Source of the DNA: Anaerolineae bacterium
GTDB lineage: Bacteria > Chloroflexota > Anaerolineae > CG2-30-64-16
Assembly: GCA_026645775.1 (NCBI GenBank)
Contig: JAPKMS010000320.1
Location: forward strand, 1 to 43,621
DNA: 43,621 nucleotides
Direction of reading: 5' to 3'
Shown one piece after another: positions 1 through 41,778 of the stretch (positions are counted from its first letter, which is position 1; each line of letters begins with the position of its first letter). The translations under genes and the position numbers were made by a program. The notes beneath the pieces were generated by a model. That model was given only the letters and a program-made list of their open reading frames with translations. It made no database searches and had not been told where the DNA came from.

Positions 1-1044
1 CCCGTGCTCGATGAGCCTCGCTCGGTGATGGCGCAGCTCCCGCTGGTGCCGCCCCTGGTCGATTTGGGACGCCGGCTGGGCTGGGCGCCGCTGCCGTTGA
101 CGATCAAGGAAGGGCGAGCGTTTGCGCGCAAGCTGACGGAACGGTTAGGGGGGCAAGGGGATGAGGAAACCGGGAGACAAGGAGACAAGGAGACGAGGAA
201 ACAAGGGGAACCCCTTGGAGCAGATCGTCACCGTGTCACCGTGTCACCCCATCCCCCCGCCATAGACGTGCGCAACCTGCACTACGCCTACGACGGCCGA
301 TCGGCGCTGCGCGGGGTCAGTCTGGCGGCCGGAGCCGGCGAATTCGTGGCGTTGATGGGGCGCAACGGTTCGGGCAAAAGCACGCTGCTGAAGCAGATGG
401 TGGGCCTGCTGCAGCCGGATGATGGCCAGGTGCTGGTGGCTGGGCTGGACACCCGGCGGGTCGCGCTGGACGACATCATCAAGACGGTGGGCTACGTGCC
501 GCAGCATCCGGGCGCCTTGCTCTTTGCGGATACGCTGGCTGCCGAACTGGTTTTCACCCGCCGCGGCCATGGCCTGCCGCTCGATCCAGTGGCCGATCGG
601 GCGCTGCTGGATCGGCTGGGCCTGGGCGAGCTGGCCGAACGCGATCCGCGCGATCTCAGCGGCGGCGAGCAACAGCGCGTCGCACTGGCCGCGATCCTGG
701 TGGCGGGTCCGCAGATCGTGCTGCTGGACGAGCCGACGCGCGGGCTGGACTATGCCCAAAAGCGCAGCCTGGCCGAGCTGCTGCTGGATCTCAAGCGCCA
801 AGGCCACACCCTCATCATGGCGACGCACGATGTTGAACTGACAGCCGCGTGCGCCGATCGTGTCGTCCTGATGGCTGAGGGCCAGATTGTGGTGGATGGC
901 CCTGTGCGCGAGGTGATGAGCGATTCGCAAGTCTTCGCCTCGCAGATCAACAAACTGTTCCGCGATCCGCGCTACCTGGTGGTGGCGGACGTGATGGCGC
1001 GGCTCGCCGAATCGCCGAATCAACGAATGACAGATGGCACATAG
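1..1044 (+). CDS. ECF-type ABC transporter ATP-binding protein, 5' end outside window
   Basis: ATPase that would energise an energy-coupling-factor (ECF) vitamin or metal importer. The frame is open to base 1, so the gene starts outside the window. The first 45 residues (PPLVDLGRRLG, then PLPLTIKEGRAFA) look like the C-terminal tail of a preceding ATPase domain, so this is probably the second half of a tandem EcfA-type protein. After a low-complexity linker (bases 141-250) comes a complete ATPase domain: Walker A GRNGSGKST, Q-loop VPQHP, signature LSGGEQQRV, Walker B VLLDEPTRGLD, and the switch His in MATHD. It overlaps the downstream S-component gene by 11 bases, which implies co-translation. 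The transported substrate cannot be read from the sequence. Confidence 0.9.
   Translation, partial: PVLDEPRSVMAQLPLVPPLVDLGRRLGWAPLPLTIKEGRAFARKLTERLGGQGDEETGRQGDKETRKQGEPLGADRHRVTVSPHPPAIDVRNLHYAYDGRSALRGVSLAAGAGEFVALMGRNGSGKSTLLKQMVGLLQPDDGQVLVAGLDTRRVALDDIIKTVGYVPQHPGALLFADTLAAELVFTRRGHGLPLDPVADRALLDRLGLGELAERDPRDLSGGEQQRVALAAILVAGPQIVLLDEPTRGLDYAQKRSLAELLLDLKRQGHTLIMATHDVELTAACADRVVLMAEGQIVVDGPVREVMSDSQVFASQINKLFRDPRYLVVADVMARLAESPNQRMTDGT
141..250. repeat. Low-complexity GGAGACAAGG-type insertion in ABC ATPase linker
   Basis: Purine-rich tandem words (GGAGACAAGGAGACAAGGAG, GAGGAAACAAGGGG) are followed by pyrimidine-rich GTGTCACC repeats and CCCATCCCCCC, so the two ends are roughly complementary. 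It encodes the polar linker between the two ATPase halves without breaking the frame. The same word type, GAAACAAGGAGACGC, recurs at 40059-40077. Confidence 0.55.
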
Positions 1045-20378: not shown

Positions 20379-23225
20379 ATGCTCTACGCTGACGTTTGCG
20401 CAAACACACCCCTCGGCCGGCGGGTCAGCCCGGCTACCGCTCACGAGGCTGAGGTCTTCACCTACGCGATCCCGGATCGGCTGGCTGACCGTTTGCAGCC
20501 CGGCCACCTTGTCTGGGTGCCTTTTCGCAGCCGCCGGTTGCAGGCGGTGGTGTTGCGGATCAGCGATGCCGCGCCGCAGTTCGACACCCACGAGATCCTC
20601 TCCCTGGTCTGGGCGCAGCCGCTGTTGACGCCCGCACAACTGGCCCTGGCCCGTTGGCTAAGTGACACCTATCTGGCGCCCCTCATTGAATCGCTCCGGG
20701 TGATGTTACCCGTGGGCCTGACGCAGCGCGGGCGCACGGTGTTTGTGCGGACCGCACGGCCCGCACCGCCGGACCTCACCGCGACTCAGGCGGCCCTGCT
20801 GGCGCACATCGCCCAGGCTGAAGGGGATTGGGCGGAGGTCAGTGAGGGCTTGCGGGGCGTAACCCAGCGCGCTGACTTGGAGCCATTGATCGAGCGCGGG
20901 TTGGTGAGCCGCGAGACTTCCTTCCCCACCCCACCGCCGCGGCCCAAGACGGACCGTCAGGTGCGGCTGTTGGCAGACGCGGACGCGATCGAGCGGGCCT
21001 TGCCGACCCTGGGGCGCGCATCCAAGCAGGCGGATACGCTGGCGTGGTTGGCGCAACAACCGCAGGCTGTCCCTGTGGAGCAGGTCTGCACCGCGATCGG
21101 CTGCACCGCCGGACCGGTGAAGGCGTTGGCTGAGCGCGGGTGGGCGGCGATCACGCCGGGCGCGAGCCGGGGCAAGCCAGCGACGGTGGCCTTGACGCTG
21201 GCGCCGGAAGCCGTGCGCGATGCGATCATCCAGTTGCGTGGGGCCGAGAAACACCGGACTGTGCTGCAAGCGCTGCTGGCTCACGATGGCCCCGCCTGGG
21301 TCGGTTGGGTCTATGCGGAAACCGATGCCACGTTGGACACCTTGCGCGACCTCGAGGCCGCGGGCCTGGTCACCGTGGCCGAGGAGATGGTGTGGCGGGA
21401 CCCGTTGGCTGGCCAGCAGTTCAAGCTGGATCAGCCGCCTGCACTGACTGAAGATCAGCAGCGGGTGTGGGCGCGGGTCCGTGAGCGGATCAGCCAATCG
21501 GCGGATCGGCGAAGAGACGAAGAGGCGAATTCCGAAGCGACCGATTCGCCAGCGGCCAGCGGCCATCTGACATCCGACATTCCCCATTCGCCATTCGCCA
21601 TTCGCCATTCCCCTCTCCTCCTCCACGGCGTCACCGGTTCGGGTAAGACCGAAATTTACCTGCGGGCGATCGCCGATGTGCTTGGCCGGGGCCAGCAAGC
21701 GGTCGTGCTGGTGCCTGAGATCGCGTTGACGCCGCAGACCATCCGCCGTTTTGCCGCGCGCTTTCCGGGCAAGGTCACGGTGTGGCACAGCGAGTTGAGC
21801 GACGGCGAACGGTTCGACGTCTGGCGCCGCGTGCGCACCAACCACCCGGCCGCACAGGTAGTGGTTGGCTCCCGCTCCGCGCTGTTTCTGCCGTTCCCCG
21901 ACCTGGGTGTTATCGTGATCGACGAGGAGCACGAACCTTCGTACAAACAGGAACGGACTCCGCGCTATCATGCGCGCGCGGCCGCGCTCGCGCTGGGCCG
22001 GTTGTGCGGGACGCCGGTGCTGTTGGGCAGCGCAACGCCTGCCCTGGAAACGTATTATGCTGCGCAGCGCGGGGAGATCGAACTTCTGACATTGCCGAAG
22101 CGCATCCGCTCCGGCGAATGGACAGCCGGAAATGGCGTTGACGCGGTCGGCAATCTGACGCTGGTCCCGGTTGCCGCCAACGGCGAGCTGCCCCCGGTGC
22201 GCATTGTGGATATGCGCCAGGAATTGCGGGCGGGCAATCGCAGCATGTTCAGCCGGCCGCTGGCAACCGGGTTGCGGCACGTCTTGTCGGCCGGACAGCA
22301 GGCGATCCTCTATCTCAATCGCCGCGGCACGGCGACGTTTATCTTGTGCCGCGATTGCGGCCGCGTGGAGAGCTGCCCGCGGTGCCTGATCCCACTGACG
22401 CTGCACGGCGCCGGCGAGCATCCTTCGTCGGAGCTTGTCTGTCATCACTGCAACCGGCGCTATCCGGTGCCCAGCGTCTGTCTGACGTGCGGTGGGCGTC
22501 GCATCCGGTTTTTTGGCGTGGGCACCGAACGCGTGGAAGAGGCGGTTAAGTTGGAATTTCCCGAGGCGCGCACCCTGCGCTGGGATCGGGACGTCACCGG
22601 CCCCAAGGGCTCGCACGACGCCATCCTGTCCAAATTCATCGCGCACGAGGCCGACGTGTTGATCGGCACCCAGATGATCGCCAAAGGGCTGGATCTGCCG
22701 CTGGTGACCCTGGTGGGTGTGATGGCCGCCGACACCGGGCTGTTTTTGCCTGATTTCCGGGCCGGCGAGCGCACCTTCCAATTGCTGACCCAGGTGGCAG
22801 GCCGCGCTGGACGCAGCACGTTGGGCGGCGAGGTCGTCATCCAGACCTATCACCCGGAACATTACGCAATCATTGCGGCGAGCAACCATGATTATGAGGG
22901 CTTCTATCGGCAGGAGATGGCATTTCGGCGGGAGCAGCGGTATCCGCCGGTGCGGCGCCTGGCGCGGCTGGTCTTTTATCACGGTCAGCGCGACAAGGCC
23001 CAGGCGGAGGCGAGCCGGTTGAGTCAGGAGCTGCGCGCACAAATCGTCGAGCTCGCATTGGCGGAGACGGATCTGATCGGTCCAGCCCCGTGTTTCTTCA
23101 GCCGCCAGCGCGGGGAATACCGTTGGCAGATCGTGGTGCGCAGTCCTGACCCCGCTGCGCTGCTGCGCCATATCGTCTTGCAACCCGGTTGGCGGCTTGA
23201 TATCGACCCGGTGGATTTACTATGA
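20379..23225 (+). CDS. priA: Primosomal protein N' (replication restart helicase PriA)
   Basis: 3'-5' DNA helicase that reloads the replisome at stalled forks. The 948-residue product is longer than usual (about 730-830). Order: N-terminal DNA-binding domain ([18 protein letters not shown]), a winged-helix/linker region, a low-complexity stretch (residues 373-413), then the helicase: Walker [13 protein letters not shown] (residue 417), DEEH box [13 protein letters not shown], and the eight-Cys zinc region ([13 protein letters not shown] ... [18 protein letters not shown]). Motifs IV-VI follow, with [15 protein letters not shown] and QVAGRAGR. It overlaps the thioredoxin-like gene by 4 bases. 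The long open frame on the opposite strand is a codon-bias shadow. Confidence 0.95.
21496..21618. repeat. In-frame low-complexity insertion in priA
   Basis: Short words in tandem: GGCGGATCGGCGAAGAGACG and ATTCGCCATTCGCCATTCGC. The left end (AATCGGCGGATCGGCGAA) and right end (repeated ATTCGCC) are roughly complementary, giving an imperfect palindrome. It encodes about 41 polar residues immediately before the Walker A loop and keeps the frame. Confidence 0.7.
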
Positions 23226-28354: not shown

Positions 28355-30073
28355 CTACAAACTCATCGCGCACCCATCGGCGCGCGGATCGCTGCCGCCG
28401 CACAAGATACCTGTCTCAGGGTCGCGCAGGATGATCTGGCCTCGGCCGAAAAGGGCGCGTTCGTGGCCGGTCACCGTGACCACCGGATGCCCCATGCCGG
28501 CCAGCGCGGCGACCGCGGCGGGCGGTATGCCGTCTTCCAGGCTCACCGCGCCCCCGGCCGTCCCATCGCCGATGCAGAAGCGCGGCCGATCGAGCGCGGC
28601 CTGCGAGTCGAGCCGGTCATCGGCCAGAGCCAGCACCACCTGCACGTGTCCCTGCGGCTGGTTGAACCCGCCCATGACGCCGAACGGGGCAAGTAGTAGA
28701 TTGGTAGATTGGGGATTGATAGATTGGGAGTTGGTGGAATCGTCCACCAATCTACCACGTAACAATTTACCATCTACCAATTTACCCCGTCCCAATCTAC
28801 GATCCACCGTAATCATTCCCGGAATAATCGTGTGATATGGCCGCTTGCCGGGCGCGAGCGCGTTGGGGTGTGCCGGGTCCAGGCTGAAGTTGTGGCCGCG
28901 GTTCTGCAGGGTGAAGCCCCAGCCCGTGGGCACGATGCCGGTGCCAAAGCCCATGTAGTTGCTGTTGATGAAGGAGCAGGCGTTGCCCTCGCCATCTACC
29001 ACGCAGAAGTAGACCGTGTCGGAGCCGGCCACGGGCGCGCCGCGGCGCTGGTCGAGGGTGGCGCGGGCCAGGTCAATGAGGCGGCGGCGGTCGGCGGCAT
29101 ACTCTTTGGAGAGTAGCTGGTAGATTGGTACATTGGTGAATCGGGGGTCGGCAACGTACCATCGCGTGTCGGCGAAGGCCAGGCGCATCGCCTCGATCGC
29201 CAGGTGCAGCCGTTCCGGCGAGAGCGGATCGAGCCCGGCGAGGTCGAAGCCTTCCAGCACATTGAGCGCCAGCAGCGCAGCCAGCCCCTGGCCGTTAGGC
29301 GGGCATTCCCAAACGCGCAGGCCGCGGTAGGTGGTGCTGATCGGCTCGTCCCAGGTGCTGGTGTGTGCGGCCAGATCGTCGACCGTCATGCAGCCGCCCG
29401 CGGCCCGGACGGCGGCGGCGATGGCCTTGGCGATGGCGCCCTGGTAGTAGGCGGCCTTGCCGCCCTCGGCCACCGTGCGAAACGTGCGCGCCAGGCCGGG
29501 GTTGCGGAAGATCTCGCCGGCTCGCGGGGCGCGGCCGTCCAGGGTCAGCTCGCGGCCGCCGGGCGCACCGGTTAGTTGCCGTTCGGCCCCGCGCTGCCAG
29601 AAGTAGGCGGTGATCGGCGCGACCGGAAAGCCCTCTTCAGCCAGGCGGATGGCCGGGGCGAGGAGCCGTGACAGCGGCAAGCGGCCGTAGCGCTCGGCCA
29701 AGTCGCACCAGCCCGCGCATGCGCCGGGCACGGTGACGGTGTGGGGGTGATAGGGCGGCAGCTCAGCGCCGAACCCCTCGTGTTGCAAGCGTTCCAGCGT
29801 CAGCCCGGCCGGCGCGCGGCCTGACCCGTTAAGCGCGGTCACCTGGCCCGTCGCCATCTCGTAGAACAGCGCAAAGCAATCGCCGCCGATACCGGTGGAG
29901 GTCGGCTCGGTGACGTTTAATGCCGCGGCCGTGGCGATTGCTGCATCGGCCGCGTTGCCGCCCGCGGCCAGGATCTCCAGCCCGGCGGCCACGGCCAGAG
30001 GCTGCGAGGCGGCGATCATGCCGCGGCGGCTATAGACGGGCGAGCGGCGGGAGGTGAAGGGGAGGTCGGACAT
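28355..30073 (-). CDS. ggt: Gamma-glutamyltransferase (gamma-glutamyltranspeptidase)
   Basis: Cleaves gamma-glutamyl bonds of glutathione-type peptides; the precursor self-cleaves at a Thr. The 572-residue product has GNAADAAIATAAALNVTEP, STGIGGDCFALFYE, the autocleavage region with VAGSDTVYFCVVDGEGNA where Thr precedes the new small subunit, and SFINSNYMGFGTG. The usual link between PYHTIIPGM and FGVMGG is about 10 residues; here it is about 45 (residues 424-460) because of a low-complexity insertion at 28693-28800. No signal peptide is evident, so it may be cytoplasmic. It lies 17 bases upstream of the RsmF-like gene. Confidence 0.92.
   Translation of the reverse strand: MSDLPFTSRRSPVYSRRGMIAASQPLAVAAGLEILAAGGNAADAAIATAAALNVTEPTSTGIGGDCFALFYEMATGQVTALNGSGRAPAGLTLERLQHEGFGAELPPYHPHTVTVPGACAGWCDLAERYGRLPLSRLLAPAIRLAEEGFPVAPITAYFWQRGAERQLTGAPGGRELTLDGRAPRAGEIFRNPGLARTFRTVAEGGKAAYYQGAIAKAIAAAVRAAGGCMTVDDLAAHTSTWDEPISTTYRGLRVWECPPNGQGLAALLALNVLEGFDLAGLDPLSPERLHLAIEAMRLAFADTRWYVADPRFTNVPIYQLLSKEYAADRRRLIDLARATLDQRRGAPVAGSDTVYFCVVDGEGNACSFINSNYMGFGTGIVPTGWGFTLQNRGHNFSLDPAHPNALAPGKRPYHTIIPGMITVDRRLGRGKLVDGKLLRGRLVDDSTNSQSINPQSTNLLLAPFGVMGGFNQPQGHVQVVLALADDRLDSQAALDRPRFCIGDGTAGGAVSLEDGIPPAAVAALAGMGHPVVTVTGHERALFGRGQIILRDPETGILCGGSDPRADGCAMSL
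28693..28800. repeat. TGGTAGATTGG-type palindromic insertion in ggt
   Basis: Left half repeats TAGATTGG/TTGGTAGATTGGGG; right half repeats CCAATCTACC/ATTTACC, so the two halves are complementary. The frame is kept and about 36 residues are added. Related words appear at 29113-29142 (same gene) and at 41648-41677. Confidence 0.75.
29113..29142. repeat. Partial TGGTAGATTGG word inside ggt
   Basis: GTAGCTGGTAGATTGGTACA shares TGGTAGATTGG with the larger insertion at 28693-28800. It encodes part of the variable stretch FTNVPIYQLLS. Confidence 0.5.
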
Positions 30074-32421: not shown

Positions 32422-32482
32422 GGAATCGAGGCTTTAGCCGGTTTCGTTGTTGACCAGCGTGACCGGCTAAAGCCTCGACTCC
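32422..32482. repeat. Dispersed GAGGCTTTAGCCGG palindrome, copy 1
   Basis: Arms GGAATCGAGGCTTTAGCCGG (32422-32441) and CCGGCTAAAGCCTCGACTCC (32463-32482) are complementary at 19 of 20 positions around a 21-base loop. It lies in the gap between the LuxR-type gene and the SDR operon. The rest of the gap (32283-32421) shows nothing I can name. Confidence 0.85.
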
Positions 32483-34607: not shown

Positions 34608-34915
34608 AACCTGGCTCCAAAGCTGGTGTTGCTTATCTCACATCCAGTATGCCACAATTCCGGGCGCAGCGGATGCGCCCAAAGGCGCATCCGGGGGTGT
34701 AAGAAAGGGGCGACACAGGTTCCGGAATCGAGGCCTCAGCCGGTTTCCTTGCTGATCTGAAAATGGGACGCAGATTCACCTGATTGACCTGATTACTGCC
34801 ATTTCATCCCTGATTGTGCCCGACAGGGACATGGACACTGATCTGAGTGACCGGCTAAAGCCTCGATTCCGGTTGGCTGGCCGAGGCTCAGATTGAGCCT
34901 CCCTTGGTTGCCCGG
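34608..34915. other. 308-base gap filled by hairpins and a dispersed repeat
   Basis: No gene seen. From left to right it holds a perfect hairpin (CGGATGCGCC-CAAA-GGCGCATCCG at 34670-34693), copy 2 of the GAGGCTTTAGCCGG palindrome split by about 100 bases (34722-34872), and a short hairpin (GAGGCTCA-GAT-TGAGCCTC at 34883-34901). Promoters for the membrane-protein gene are not obvious. Confidence 0.7.
34722..34872. repeat. Dispersed GAGGCTTTAGCCGG palindrome, copy 2, with internal insertion
   Basis: Left arm CCGGAATCGAGGCCTCAGCC (34722-34741) and right arm ACCGGCTAAAGCCTCGATTC (34850-34869, then CGG). The arms are separated by about 105 bases instead of about 20. The extra DNA has its own small inverted repeat (AAATGG ... 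CCATTT) and repeated CTGATT/CCTGATTG words, so it looks like a second element nested in the loop. Confidence 0.7.
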
Positions 34916-37678: not shown

Positions 37679-40009
37679 CTACCCCTTGCCCCGCAACCCC
37701 CGCCAGACCCGCTCCGGCGTCAGCGGAAACTCATCGAAGCGCACGCCGATCGCATCGTAGACGGCGGCCGCAACGGCTGCCGCCGCGGGCAGGAAGGGCA
37801 TCTCGCCCATGCCGCGCGCACCGTATGGCCCGTTGGGGTCGGGCACCTCGACGATCAGGGCGTCCATCTGGTCGGGCACGTCAAGGATGGTTGGGATCAG
37901 GTAGGTGCTGAACTTGTCGGTCAGCACGCGACCCTCGCGTGCCTTCCACTCCTCCTGGATGGCGTAGCCCAGCGCCTGCACGGCCGCGCCTTCGATCTGG
38001 CCGGTCACCTGCTGTGGGTTGATGGCCTGGCCCACGTCATCCGCGCTGATGAAGCGCTCAACCTTGATCTGCCCCGTCTCGGTGTCCACCGCGACCAGGG
38101 CGACCTGGGCCACGTAGCCGTAGGCGAAGTTGGGCTGCCCCTGGCCGGTCTCAGGGTCAAGTTTGGTGGTTTTGGGCGCCAGGTAGATGTACTCGCCGAC
38201 GGCCGGGCGATCCTCGTTCTGCCAGGCCGCCAGCGCCTTTTCGGCCGCGCCCTTGACCGCGTTGCCGCTCATGTAGGTCAGCCGAGACGCGGACGCGCTG
38301 CCCGAGCTGCCCATGAGCGATGTGTCGGAGGCAACCACTTTGACCCGCTCGAACGGCACGCCGGTCACCTCGGCCGCGACCTGGGCGATGATGGTGTGGT
38401 TGCCCTGGCCGCAGTCGGCGCCGGCAAAGTAGACCGTCGCTTCGGCGATCTCGCCGGCCCCGCGCAGCTCGACCCGCGCATAGCTGTTCTCCTGATAGCC
38501 GAAGCTGAAACCGACGTTTTTGAAGCCGGCGGCAAAGCCGAGGCCGTGGCGGATTGGGGATTGGGGACTAGGGACTAGGGACTGGGGATTGGGGATTCCT
38601 GACTCCTGGCTCCTGCCCCCTGATCCCTGATCCCTGGTCCCTAATCCCACCGGCTTCCGCCACTGTCCCGCCTCGTCCTGCGTCCAGCCGGCCGCTTTCG
38701 CGGCGGCGATGATGGTCTCGGTCATGCCGACGCCGCCGGGAATGGGGGTGCCGACGGTGAGCAGGCTTTCATCGGTCAGGATGTTCCGCAGCCGGATCTC
38801 CACCGGGTCAAGGCCCAGCGCCTCGGCCAGTTTATCCATCTGGCTTTCGGCCGCGAAGTGGCCCTGGGGGCCGCCGAAGCCGCGAAACGCCGCGCCCGGC
38901 ACGTTGTTGGTGTAGACCGCGTAGGTGTCCACGGCCACGTGCGGGATGTCGTAGGGACCGGTGCAGGTGAGGGTGGTATTGCCCAGCACTTTGTTGCTGG
39001 TGTACATGTACGCGCCGCCGTCAGCGATCACTTTGACTTCCACGGCGGTGAGCTTGCCATTCCGTTTCGCGCCCCACCTGGTGTAGATCTTCATCGCGTG
39101 GCGTTTGCCGTGGCCGATGATGGACTCCTCGCGGCTCCAGATGGTCTTGACCGGCCGCACAATGCCGCGCTGTGCCAGCCGCCAGACGGCCAGCGCCAGG
39201 GTGATCTGCACCGACATGTCCTCGCGGCCGCCGAACGCGCCGCCGATGGCCGGGTAGATGACGCGCACCTGTTCCTTGGGGATGCCCAGTGCGTGGGCGA
39301 TCTGGCCCTGGTCTTCGTGCGTCCACTGCCCGGCCACCTCCACGGTGACGCGGCCAGCCTCGTCCAGGTAGGCTACGCCGGCCTCCGGCTGGAGATAGGC
39401 GTGCTCCTGCACTGGGGTACGGTAAACCCCTTCGATGATGACATCTGTCTCGCGGAAGCCGGTCTCGACCTCACCCTTGCGAATACGGTAGCCGTAGCAG
39501 ACGTTGTCTGCCCTGTGCGGGTGAAGCTGAAACGGCACAGGGCGTGTGGGGTCGGGATCGCCCAGCCCGCCCGCCAACGACGGCGCGGCCGCTTCCGGGT
39601 CGGTGATGACCGGCAGGTCTTCCCACTCAACGCGGATCAGCTTACACGCGGCGCGGGCCTGGACCTCGGTCTCGGCCACGACGAGCGCGACCTGGTCGCC
39701 GACGAAGCGCACCCTGTCTGCGCCTGCGAGGGTGGATCCCGGCCCGCACAGCACGGGTTGATCCTTGATCTGGAGGCCGTACTCGTTCACCGGCACGTCG
39801 GCGGCGGTGAAAACGGCCACGACGCCCGGCGCGGCCTCGGCAGCCGCGGTGTCAATGCGCACGACGCGCGCATGCGGCCGGCCGGCGAACAGTGTCGCCA
39901 GGTGCAGCATATCCGGCGGGGTGATGTCGCCGGGGTAGAGTGTCTTGCCTGTGACCTTGCCCGCGGCGTCGATGCGGGGGGCGTCGGTCCCGATAGTTTG
40001 GTAGGTCAT
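37679..40009 (-). CDS. Molybdenum-binding subunit of a xanthine dehydrogenase-type hydroxylase
   Basis: Large catalytic subunit (776 residues) that hydroxylates N-heterocycles or aldehydes at a molybdopterin site. Order: N-terminal aldehyde oxidase a/b hammerhead (GKTLYPGDITPPDMLH ... ARVVRID), then the Mo-binding part with AFRGFGGPQGHFAAE, ADCGQGNHTIIAQVA, MGSSGSASASRLTYMSGNA and the C-terminal GARGMGEMPFLPAAAAVAAA, where Glu is the expected catalytic base. ATG 40009 has GGAAG upstream. A 98-base G-rich palindrome is inserted at residues 454-486. YqeC, SelD, SsnA and YgfK nearby suggest a selenium-dependent enzyme with a labile Se ligand, not Sec. Confidence 0.92.
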   Translation of the reverse strand: MTYQTIGTDAPRIDAAGKVTGKTLYPGDITPPDMLHLATLFAGRPHARVVRIDTAAAEAAPGVVAVFTAADVPVNEYGLQIKDQPVLCGPGSTLAGADRVRFVGDQVALVVAETEVQARAACKLIRVEWEDLPVITDPEAAAPSLAGGLGDPDPTRPVPFQLHPHRADNVCYGYRIRKGEVETGFRETDVIIEGVYRTPVQEHAYLQPEAGVAYLDEAGRVTVEVAGQWTHEDQGQIAHALGIPKEQVRVIYPAIGGAFGGREDMSVQITLALAVWRLAQRGIVRPVKTIWSREESIIGHGKRHAMKIYTRWGAKRNGKLTAVEVKVIADGGAYMYTSNKVLGNTTLTCTGPYDIPHVAVDTYAVYTNNVPGAAFRGFGGPQGHFAAESQMDKLAEALGLDPVEIRLRNILTDESLLTVGTPIPGGVGMTETIIAAAKAAGWTQDEAGQWRKPVGLGTRDQGSGGRSQESGIPNPQSLVPSPQSPIRHGLGFAAGFKNVGFSFGYQENSYARVELRGAGEIAEATVYFAGADCGQGNHTIIAQVAAEVTGVPFERVKVVASDTSLMGSSGSASASRLTYMSGNAVKGAAEKALAAWQNEDRPAVGEYIYLAPKTTKLDPETGQGQPNFAYGYVAQVALVAVDTETGQIKVERFISADDVGQAINPQQVTGQIEGAAVQALGYAIQEEWKAREGRVLTDKFSTYLIPTILDVPDQMDALIVEVPDPNGPYGARGMGEMPFLPAAAAVAAAVYDAIGVRFDEFPLTPERVWRGLRGKG
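38551..38648. repeat. GGGATTGGGGACTAGGGA-type palindrome inserted in the Mo-subunit gene
   Basis: The left half repeats GATTGGGG and ACTAGGG; the right half repeats TGATCCC and ends CCCTAATCCC. The halves are complementary, and each strand has five or more runs of GGG spaced by about 4 bases, so both a hairpin and G-quadruplexes are possible. It adds about 33 residues in frame. It shares GATTGGGGACTAGGGA with the copy at 40926 and 27 of 28 right-arm bases with that at 41388. Confidence 0.85.
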
Positions 40010-40058
40010 AGCTGTCTTCCTCTGGTTGGATAGACGAGTAGCCAAGGAAATAAGGAAA

Positions 40059-40077
40059 CGGGGAAACAAGGAGACGC
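40059..40077. repeat. Purine-rich GGAAACAAGGAGACG word upstream of the Mo-subunit gene
   Basis: GGGGAAACAAGGAGACGC is the same word family as the ABC-ATPase linker insertion at 141-250. It lies in the 81-base gap between the fused subunit gene and the Mo-subunit gene. Confidence 0.45.
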
Positions 40078-40090
40078 GCGCACTATCGTA

Positions 40091-41635
40091 CTATCGCACT
40101 GTCGCCCGCTCGATCGCTTCCAGGATCTTGTAATACCCCGTGCAGCGGCACAGGTTGCCGGTCAAAGCCTGCTTGACCTGGTCGGCAGTGGGCTGTGGAA
40201 ATTCTTCCAGTAAATTCGCCGCGGACATCAGGATGCCGGGGGTGCAATAGCCGCACTGGACCGCCGCGGCATCGATGAATGCCTGTTGGAGCGGGTGCAA
40301 CCTCACCCCCGCCCCCTCTCCTGCCAGGAGCGGGGAGGCAGGGGAGAGGTCCGCCAGCCCTTCCACCGTGACCACCTCGCACCCCTCCGCGCGTTCCGCC
40401 GGCACCAGGCAGCTCATCACCGCCACGCCGTCGAGCCAGACCGTACACGCGCCGCACTCGCCCTCGGCGCAGCCCTCTTTAGTCCCGGTGAGACCCGCGT
40501 CCTCGCGCAGCGCGCGCAGCAGGGTTTTGCCGTGGGCATTGTGGAGCACGATTGGTTTGCCGTTCAATGTGAAGGTGATTGTGTGGGGGTGTGGGAGTGT
40601 GGGAGTAGACTTGAGCACTCCCATACTCCCATACTCCGACACCCTGCCACCCTGCAACAACACCGGCTCCTCCGGCCACCCTTCCCGTTCCGTGCCATCG
40701 CGCAACTGGCGCAAGGATCGGGCGGTTAACACGCGCACCATGTCGCGGCGATAGTCGGCGCTGCCGCGGACATCGGTGATGGGGCGGGCGGCGGCGGCCG
40801 TGAGTTCAGCCGCGCGTTCGATGACCTCGTCGGTCAACTCTTTGCCCGCCAGATAGGCTTCGGCCTCCCCCGCTCGCACGATGGTGGGCGCAACCGAGCC
40901 GAGGGCGATGCGAGCATGGGTGACCGGGGATTGGGGACTAGGGATAAGGAATTCTCCTGATGCCCATTCCCTGGCTCCTAATACCACCGCCACATTCACC
41001 ACGCTGATCGCCTGCGCCTGCCGCAACCCCAGCTTCAGGAAGGTGCCGCGTTCAGTGGGTTTCAGGGCCGGGACGTTGATGCGGACGAGCATCTCATCGG
41101 GTTGAAGCGCGGTCTTGCGCACGCCGCGGAAGAACTCGGCGCAGGTCAGGGTGCGCTCCCCGCGGTCGCGGCTGGCCAGGGTGAACGTGGCATCCATGGC
41201 CCACAGCGGCGTGATGGTGTCGTTCGCCGGGCTGGCGGTGATGCAGTTGCCCGCGACCGTGCCGCGGTTGCGAATCTGCGGCGCGCCGACCAGCCAGCAG
41301 GCGCGCGCCAGCGGGAAAGCGTGCGCCACCGCATCAGGCGTGCCGACCACCTGGTTGTGGGTGACGTTGGCGCCCAGGGTGAGGTGAGGGATTGGGGCCT
41401 GGGGATCAGGGACCGGGAAGCTGGCGTCTGATCCCTGATCCCTGATCCCTAATCCCCCGATTTTACCCAGCCCCGGGATGCGCGAGACATCAATCAGGGT
41501 CTCCGGCGTGCGCACCCCGCGCTCGATCTCCAGGATCAGGTCGGTGCCGCCCGCGATGAGACGAGCGTTGCTGTGCTGCGCCAGCAGGTCGAGCGCCTCA
41601 GCAACGCTGTCCGGCGCGTAGTAGGTGTGCCACAT
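40091..41635 (-). CDS. Fused FAD-binding and [2Fe-2S] subunits of the molybdenum hydroxylase
   Basis: One 514-residue chain doing the work of two electron-transfer subunits. Residues 1-310 are the FAD part (LIAGGTDLILEIERG, GAPQIRNRGTVAGNCITASP, AQAISVVNVAVVLG, ADYRRDMVRVLTARSL). Residues 350-514 are the iron-sulfur part: FTLNGKPIVLHNAHGKTLL, GCAEGECGACTVWLDG for the plant-type cluster, then QCGYCTPGILMSAANLL and GNLCRCTGYYKILEAI for the second cluster. Electrons would pass Mo to 2Fe-2S to FAD. ATG 41635 has GGAG 7 bases upstream. Four low-complexity insertions lie in loops, including one at the domain junction. It precedes the Mo-subunit gene by 81 bases. Confidence 0.9.
   Translation of the reverse strand: MWHTYYAPDSVAEALDLLAQHSNARLIAGGTDLILEIERGVRTPETLIDVSRIPGLGKIGGLGIRDQGSDASFPVPDPQAPIPHLTLGANVTHNQVVGTPDAVAHAFPLARACWLVGAPQIRNRGTVAGNCITASPANDTITPLWAMDATFTLASRDRGERTLTCAEFFRGVRKTALQPDEMLVRINVPALKPTERGTFLKLGLRQAQAISVVNVAVVLGAREWASGEFLIPSPQSPVTHARIALGSVAPTIVRAGEAEAYLAGKELTDEVIERAAELTAAAARPITDVRGSADYRRDMVRVLTARSLRQLRDGTEREGWPEEPVLLQGGRVSEYGSMGVLKSTPTLPHPHTITFTLNGKPIVLHNAHGKTLLRALREDAGLTGTKEGCAEGECGACTVWLDGVAVMSCLVPAERAEGCEVVTVEGLADLSPASPLLAGEGAGVRLHPLQQAFIDAAAVQCGYCTPGILMSAANLLEEFPQPTADQVKQALTGNLCRCTGYYKILEAIERATVR
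40301..40349. repeat. CCCCCTCTCCTGCC palindrome inserted in the iron-sulfur part
   Basis: GCCCCCTCTCCTGCC and GGCAGGGGAGAGG are near-complementary around AGGAGCGGGGA. It adds about 16 residues (PASPLLAGEGAGV) between the two cluster motifs and keeps the frame. Related sequences with translations of this type recur across bacteria as small palindromic elements. Confidence 0.7.
40582..40655. repeat. GTGTGGGAGTGTGGGAG palindrome at the FAD/2Fe-2S junction
   Basis: The left half repeats GTGGGAGT/GTGGGGGT; the right half repeats ACTCCCAT and CACCCTGC. It codes for about 25 residues exactly where the FAD and iron-sulfur domains join. Confidence 0.7.
40926..40984. repeat. GATTGGGGACTAGGGA palindrome inserted in the FAD part
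   Basis: The left half shares 16 identical bases with the copy at 38551; the right half CATTCCCTGGCTCCTAATACC is its degenerate complement. It adds about 20 residues in a loop after the strand VVNVAVVLG. Confidence 0.75.
41388..41456. repeat. GGGATTGGGG...CCCTAATCCC palindrome near the FAD-part N-terminus
   Basis: The left half is GGGATTGGGGCCTGGGGATC; the right half repeats TGATCCC three times and ends CCCTAATCCC. It adds about 23 residues (GGLGIRDQGS ...) between DVSRIPGLGKI and HLTLGANVTH and keeps the frame. Confidence 0.8.
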
Positions 41636-41647
41636 AGTCAAGCTCCG

Positions 41648-41677: not shown

Positions 41678-41711
41678 AGCGGTTCGGCCGAAGATCTACC
41701 TTTTTCGATCT

Positions 41712-41778
41712 GGAATAGAGGCTTTAGCCGGTTGCTTTCGTTAACCGCAACCGCAATACCGGCTGAAGCCTCGATTCC
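41712..41778. repeat. Dispersed GAGGCTTTAGCCGG palindrome, copy 3
   Basis: Arms GGAATAGAGGCTTTAGCCGG (41712-41731) and CCGGCTGAAGCCTCGATTCC (41759-41778) pair at 18 of 20 positions. It lies in the 209-base gap between the SsnA gene and the fused FAD/2Fe-2S gene. The loop TTGCTTTCGTTAACC resembles the loop of copy 1. Confidence 0.8.

Follow-up and report, generated by a model that had tools for sequence, protein, structure and literature searches.

Dispersed arrays of the G-rich heptamers GGGNATC and GGGGA(C/T)T have been described in Xanthomonas and Nostoc (Rehm et al., 2015; PMC4692102). In X. campestris, 70 of 186 heptamer repeats form convergent close pairs, and 7–11% of Xanthomonas heptamer arrays are intragenic (PMC4692102). 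We analysed a 43,621-nt stretch of DNA from an uncultured Anaerolineae bacterium (GenBank contig JAPKMS010000320.1; hereafter the window), contig C270 in a draft assembly of 4.38 Mb and 98% completeness (G000), and found bipartite arrays of 7- and 8-nt G-rich words within two adjoining genes for a molybdenum hydroxylase. These arrays resemble those of Xanthomonas and Nostoc in that 7-nt G-rich words are dispersed, form convergent pairs, are sometimes intragenic, and vary in length and copy number between relatives. By contrast, the arrays described here use many words per genome, include 8-mers, and mostly lack the capacity to form G-quadruplexes; moreover, about half lie in open reading frames (ORFs), essential genes are among their hosts, and words are replaced at orthologous sites. 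Cyanobacterial short tandemly repeated repetitive (STRR) sequences likewise comprise several heptamer words dispersed within one genome. Heptamer arrays with convergent pairs are already known from Xanthomonas and Nostoc; many words including 8-mers, a quantified polarity, invasion of essential proteins, and word replacement at orthologous sites were not found in the literature searched, which was mostly open-access, with much of the STRR literature outside it. On such a pattern in Chloroflexota, that literature yielded just one remark, on a scattered short-repeat satellite family in Chloroflexus aurantiacus (PMC6749651).

Vertebrate interstitial telomeric sequences offer an accepted example of telomere-type words that entered DNA at breaks, insertion during break repair having been deduced by comparison with empty orthologous sites (PMC7215372, PMC2246262). 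The arrays described here share with them short G-rich, telomere-type words at internal sites, an inward polarity, and a head-to-head layout where paired. However, the vertebrate sequences have one word, TTAGGG, and a known telomerase, whereas here there are many words and an end-extending enzyme would have to be invoked. We observed arrays of 7- or 8-nt G-rich words with one fixed polarity of paired arms, locus-specific junctions, and replacement of words at fixed sites over short evolutionary times. Our tentative reading, which we give slightly less than an even chance of being right, is that the arrays are built locally and not transposed: they would be scars left when breaks were repaired with G-rich words attached to each of the two 3' ends, the products then being pruned by selection for reading frame in tolerant loops.

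Inserts in two hydroxylase genes and their orthologues

A word search of the window recovered the three palindromic segments reported in a first-pass annotation of this DNA (S1–S3; Table 1), with the words listed there: GATTGGGGACTAGGGA occurs in the window only at 38559 and 40929, and TGATCCCTGATCCCT only at 38621, 41429 and 41436. Each segment consists of a G-rich 7-mer array followed by its own imperfect complement. On the coding strand, S1 reads GGGATTA GGGACCA GGGATCA GGGATCA GGGGGCA GGAGCCA GGAGTCA, then a short junction, and then CCCCAAT/CCCTAGT words; a tandem-period scan gave a period of 7 nt across 98 nt, with a score of 51. The long words that the annotation had seen as shared are thus present as described, but S1–S3 are not copies of one element: their resemblance is at the level of words, their junctions differ, and S2 has only one block in common. 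The two genes hold five repeat-derived inserts rather than the three annotated, since S4, which shares the bipartite design of S1–S3 with 8-mers, had been missed, as had S5. S5 belongs to a different class, with no 7- or 8-nt period and the C-rich arm first, contrary to the polarity rule described below; S5-like palindromes occupy the same site in two relatives (G004 and G007).

S1, S2 and S3 span 98, 59 and 69 nt, respectively, and not all of these lengths are multiples of 3. The arrays nevertheless lie in the open frames of the hydroxylase, as annotated, because the whole insert, edges included, is a multiple of 3. Their predicted position in loops was also borne out for S1, whose peptide (residues 478–502 of the large subunit) lies in a linker with a predicted local distance difference test score (pLDDT) of ~30 in the AlphaFold model. 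Predicted repeat-encoded peptides include DQGSGGR and SQESGIPNPQSLVPSPQSPIR. The annotation had proposed selection for such low-complexity peptides; tolerance and selection for frame suffice.

We aligned the hydroxylase with orthologues from same-family genomes (75–84% identity) and from more distant Anaerolineae. S1–S3 are missing from orthologues outside the family, which supports the view that they are insertions; at the S1 site, distant Anaerolineae have a short linker without such arrays, and examining this linker throughout the class led to an identical division. Repeat inserts occupy the S1 site in eight of the nine family genomes, with words that differ between genomes: GGGATCA with CCCCAAT in G000; GCGAATCA with GCAATTC in G008, with ACGCAGC in G004, and with ACACGCA-like words in G007; GGCAAAT with CCAATCTA in G005 and with ACCCAAT in G006; another palindrome in G001 and G002; and nothing recognisable in G003. 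Word class at this site did not follow the gene tree, requiring six changes where the minimum was four. The annotation had named ancient protein loops as the alternative to insertion; in this view the loops would be selected and the DNA repeats incidental. Several genomes do use the same sites, which favours it, but a given site encodes unrelated peptides in different genomes, the distant orthologues lack these residues, and the region is modelled as disordered. By the annotation's own criterion the residues are thus not ancient; orthologues contradict this explanation for S1 to S4, leaving it next to no chance of being correct.

We also compared a congeneric pair of genomes, G006 and G009, over ~38 kb, with aligned blocks mostly at 76–95% DNA identity. 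Five of the 10 orthologous array sites had the same word with a changed copy number, three had different words between conserved flanks, and two had an array in one genome only, alignment of the flank being poor at one of these two. A paralogous xanthine dehydrogenase carries two of the rewritten sites, both in frame; one falls at the linker equivalent to that of S1, before RRGxG. Consistent with the annotation's view of these sites as evolutionarily active, words at orthologous sites differ between relatives. The comparison of orthologues that it had suggested as a search for target-site duplications revealed none at the two presence/absence sites inspected, which are few. Coding inserts have sharp common edges that coincide with the onset of conserved residues, so selection probably sets them.

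Polarity, arms and junctions of a genome-wide class

We sampled 0.877 Mb of G000, of which 0.504 Mb was chosen regardless of content, and extrapolated genome-wide totals from samples, which puts the arrays of G000 in the hundreds. Tandem periods of 7 and 8 nt peak in the G000 sample; a Markov-3 surrogate (0.88 Mb, equal threshold) yielded zero arrays apart from 15 hits in runs of N. Arrays occur at 94 per Mb in G000, 283 in G006, 208 in G009, and 290 in other family members (small samples), compared to 0–50 per Mb in the remaining class. The lexicon runs to dozens of words, including GGGATCA, GGGGACT, GGCGAAT, GGAAGCT, GGTTGAA, GGTAGATT, GGTGACAA, GACAAGTA and many others, such that GGGATCA and GGGGATT are merely two among them. 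Arrays are undercounted in the draft because those at contig ends break the assembly; four in G000 end exactly at contig ends (L197:11907–11984, L218:6895–6938, L220:6341–6378 and L227:10755–10774). Slips of 7–8 nt are too long for MutS-type loop repair, and their escape from it may be the cause of the rarity of shorter periods. G000 also has a class of 6-mers, AAGGCT/AAGGTT, whose translation gives KVKAEA or LTLTST repeats (L186:16285–16392, L226:6838–6930 and L090:539–577), and the first two of these loci have the same G-then-C layout as the word arrays.

Among strict close pairs of arrays, 24 were convergent, none was divergent, and three were on the same strand. Allowing a weaker partner, we found an opposite-strand array downstream (3') of 70 of the 178 G-rich arrays and upstream (5') of none; the count of 70 may include both arms of one locus, so independent loci are fewer. 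In paired arms, the G-rich array is always 5' of the C-rich array, with the G-rich strand running 5' to 3' inward from each flank. Because this arrangement is strand-symmetric, the polarity is a real constraint and not an effect of labelling. The layout is that of two telomere tails fused head to head.

The two arms of a locus are related. Arm similarity was 0.46 within loci and 0.27 for shuffled partners (null maximum 0.35), and both arms had the same period at 92% of loci, as opposed to 55% after shuffling, the exact word often being different. We therefore rejected a model in which the arms are independent random draws of words, since class and period are common to both. We also rejected wobble templating, in which words would vary through transitions only: transitions made up 56–59% in three array-rich genomes, which is unremarkable. 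These relationships bear on replication slippage with snap-back template switching, whereby a chance word grows by 7–8-nt slips and the nascent strand folds back to serve as its own template for the second arm, with no special enzyme. Slippage of heptamers has already been proposed for bacteria (PMC4692102), and the process would account both for arms related above chance and for congeneric genomes that have the same words in different copy number. However, snap-back of a C-rich nascent strand should also yield divergent pairs, of which we saw none, the arms often differ systematically in word or period, and wholesale replacement of words between conserved flanks is left unexplained. We regard this explanation as less likely than not.

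Every junction, extended by 15 nt in both directions, served as a query against 1.16 Mb of sequence drawn from three genomes. The only matches were to the junction itself, to one orthologue, and to parts of it at the level of words, indicating that junctions are locus-specific and, therefore, that whole elements have not been transposed. Together with the different words at orthologous sites, these unique junctions do not support the annotation's small repeat family in the sense of copied elements. They also argue against transposition as a unit, into genes and spacers, of a palindromic mobile element such as a miniature inverted-repeat transposable element (MITE), a repetitive extragenic palindromic (REP) sequence or a Rickettsia palindromic element. 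The arrays do resemble Rickettsia palindromic elements, and REP sequences and REPINs with their REP-associated tyrosine transposases (RAYTs), in being short, dispersed, hairpin-forming repeats, some of which lie in frame in genes, including repair genes (PMC3733652, PMC3116915), and Y1 transposase genes are present in many relatives. Nonetheless, the arrays consist of many unrelated words with no shared consensus, and no common end tag was seen in a survey with no search aimed at GTAG or CGTC; target-site duplications were lacking at the few inspected sites; and copying of whole elements is contradicted within the 1.16 Mb searched. No transposase pattern matches the arrays: Y1 transposase (PF01797, Y1_Tnp) is absent from G006, the densest of the three sampled genomes, is weak in G000, and does not correlate with array density. 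Transposition by a RAYT was rejected given its absence from G006, and a palindromic mobile element of these types seems to us an improbable source.

Other repeats also occur in these genomes. Two G006 loci, L249:5221–5331 and L249:1236–1323, are MITE-like and, in contrast to the word arrays, have many copies at 83–100% identity in G009, those of the former matching both strands. The intergenic GGAATCGAGGCTTTAGCCGGT/ACCGGCTAAAGCCTCGATTCC family in the window (Table 1) resembles an ordinary palindromic repeat with a conserved consensus, again in contrast to the word arrays.

The annotation had also proposed that each strand forms G-quadruplexes or, alternatively, a hairpin. S1 has the four G3 tracts that this requires, but only 22 of 129 arrays have them (14 of 75 in G000 and 8 of 54 in G006), and ViennaRNA favoured hairpins even with G-quadruplexes permitted. 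G-quadruplex formation was rejected as a common principle, since four G3 tracts are missing from most words.

Table 1. Host genes, inserts and other repeats in the window.
Feature	Position	Strand	Remarks
Xanthine dehydrogenase-family molybdopterin (large) subunit	37679–40069	−	Host gene; likely start ATG near 40006
Fused flavin adenine dinucleotide (FAD)-binding and 2Fe-2S subunit	40091–41641	−	Host gene; adjoins large-subunit gene
S1, bipartite 7-mer array	38551–38648	−	Peptide GLGTRDQGSGGRSQESGIPNPQSLVPSPQSPIRH, between two cofactor-binding domains
S2, short, decayed bipartite 7-mer array	40926–40984	−	Peptide EWASGEFLIPSPQSPVTH, FAD subunit
S3, bipartite 7-mer array	41388–41456	−	Peptide GLGIRDQGSDASFPVPDPQAPIPH, FAD subunit
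S4, bipartite 8-mer array	~40581–40658	−	GGGAGTAT/GGGAGTGT class; between FAD and 2Fe-2S parts
S5, palindrome	~40297–40354		CCTCACCCCCGCCCCCTCTCC...GGAGAGG; in frame, 2Fe-2S part
Bipartite array, 8-mer G arm and 7-mer C arm	21489–21613	+	In frame in PriA, directly before LLHGVTGSG motif
Bipartite 8-mer array	165–248	+	GGAGACAA/GGTGACAC; inside open frame
8-mer words	28696–28734	+	GGTAGATT-type
Intergenic inverted repeats, three copies	32422–32482, 34719–34872, 41707–41778		GGAATCGAGGCTTTAGCCGGT/ACCGGCTAAAGCCTCGATTCC

Proposed break repair and candidate enzymes

To these observations the break-repair reading adds a proposed course of events: DNA breaks, both 3' ends gain G-rich words, the ends are joined, and the site is later rewritten. 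A break or stalled gap would expose two 3' ends, to each of which an end-extending activity, with a slipping polymerase or an RNA-templated enzyme as the candidate, would add several G-rich words of one class. Fill-in and joining would then produce G words, a junction and C words, like two fused telomere tails. If the product broke or stalled anew, the site could lose its words and receive different ones. Within genes, the survivors would be frame-restoring outcomes in tolerant loops, seen as disordered inserts with a 7- or 8-residue period. A more specific form, in which a telomerase-like bacterial end-repair activity adds short G-rich words at 3' ends and, time and again, puts new words into tolerant sites, among them loops of essential proteins, we consider rather unlikely.

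Several observations weigh against repair of breaks by word addition. Many arrays stand alone or are paired with an arm too weak for detection; some loci have a constant set of words throughout a genus and vary in copy number alone, which is what simple slippage would produce; and a single rewriting step between strains of one species was not seen. Ku is absent from G000 and from 39 of the 41 genomes searched, and non-homologous end joining was rejected as the source for that reason. The reverse transcriptases examined adjoin Cas1, and are thus CRISPR-linked, the occurrence of RVT_1 genes does not track arrays, and G001 carries arrays, yet no reverse transcriptase was found there; writing by these enzymes was accordingly rejected.

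Reverse transcriptase genes lie beside Cas1 at L318:2106–2390 and L319 (G005, G007), and a long GGAAACAA/GGAGACAA 8-mer array lies between the reverse transcriptase gene and Cas1 in G005. The bacterial defence reverse transcriptase DRT10 makes tandem-repeat DNA from a short RNA template, much as telomerase does, with a 9-nt period in one system (PMC12632851). It is a lead, followed in the literature only, and not a match, none having been identified here.

Arrays inside proteins

Of the 86 array clusters sampled in G000, 41 occupy open frames with coding-like third positions, a few of the 41 being ordinary coding repeats, mostly of period 6. This share is below coding density and far above the intragenic fraction published for Xanthomonas. 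Hosts identified by Pfam include MutS (two inserts, both in-frame word arrays; L193:12903–15677), fused glycyl-tRNA synthetase (three), aconitase (two), PurL, PurQ, KsgA, PriA, LysA-DapF and SHMT-GcvT fusions, an Hrq1-type helicase, and two more molybdenum hydroxylase subunits. Neither 7 nor 8 is divisible by three, so that frame is preserved only through the total length of an insert, as expected of what purifying selection leaves. Single-frame fusions in G000 comprise SHMT-GcvT (L226:5031–8816), GlyQ-GlyS (L189:15402–18488) and LysA-DapF (L083:17118–19787); SHMT-GcvT and GlyQ-GlyS each have an array where their two parts meet, so arrays may bridge neighbouring genes into fusions. Borg tandem repeats are similarly fast-evolving, lie in ORFs in about half of cases, and generate disordered segments; however, their in-ORF units are nearly perfect and divisible by three (PMC9879509), whereas the units here are 7–8 nt and frame comes from total length.

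If the polarity reflects addition of words at 3' ends, these genomes hold a legible record of breaks and of a repair route that would be new, in bacteria without Ku. The arrays would then steadily supply essential proteins with novel disordered stretches, whose turnover would outpace the divergence of the protein itself. Whether the head-to-head arrays of Xanthomonas, Nostoc and Anaerolineae have a common mechanism would also become directly testable.
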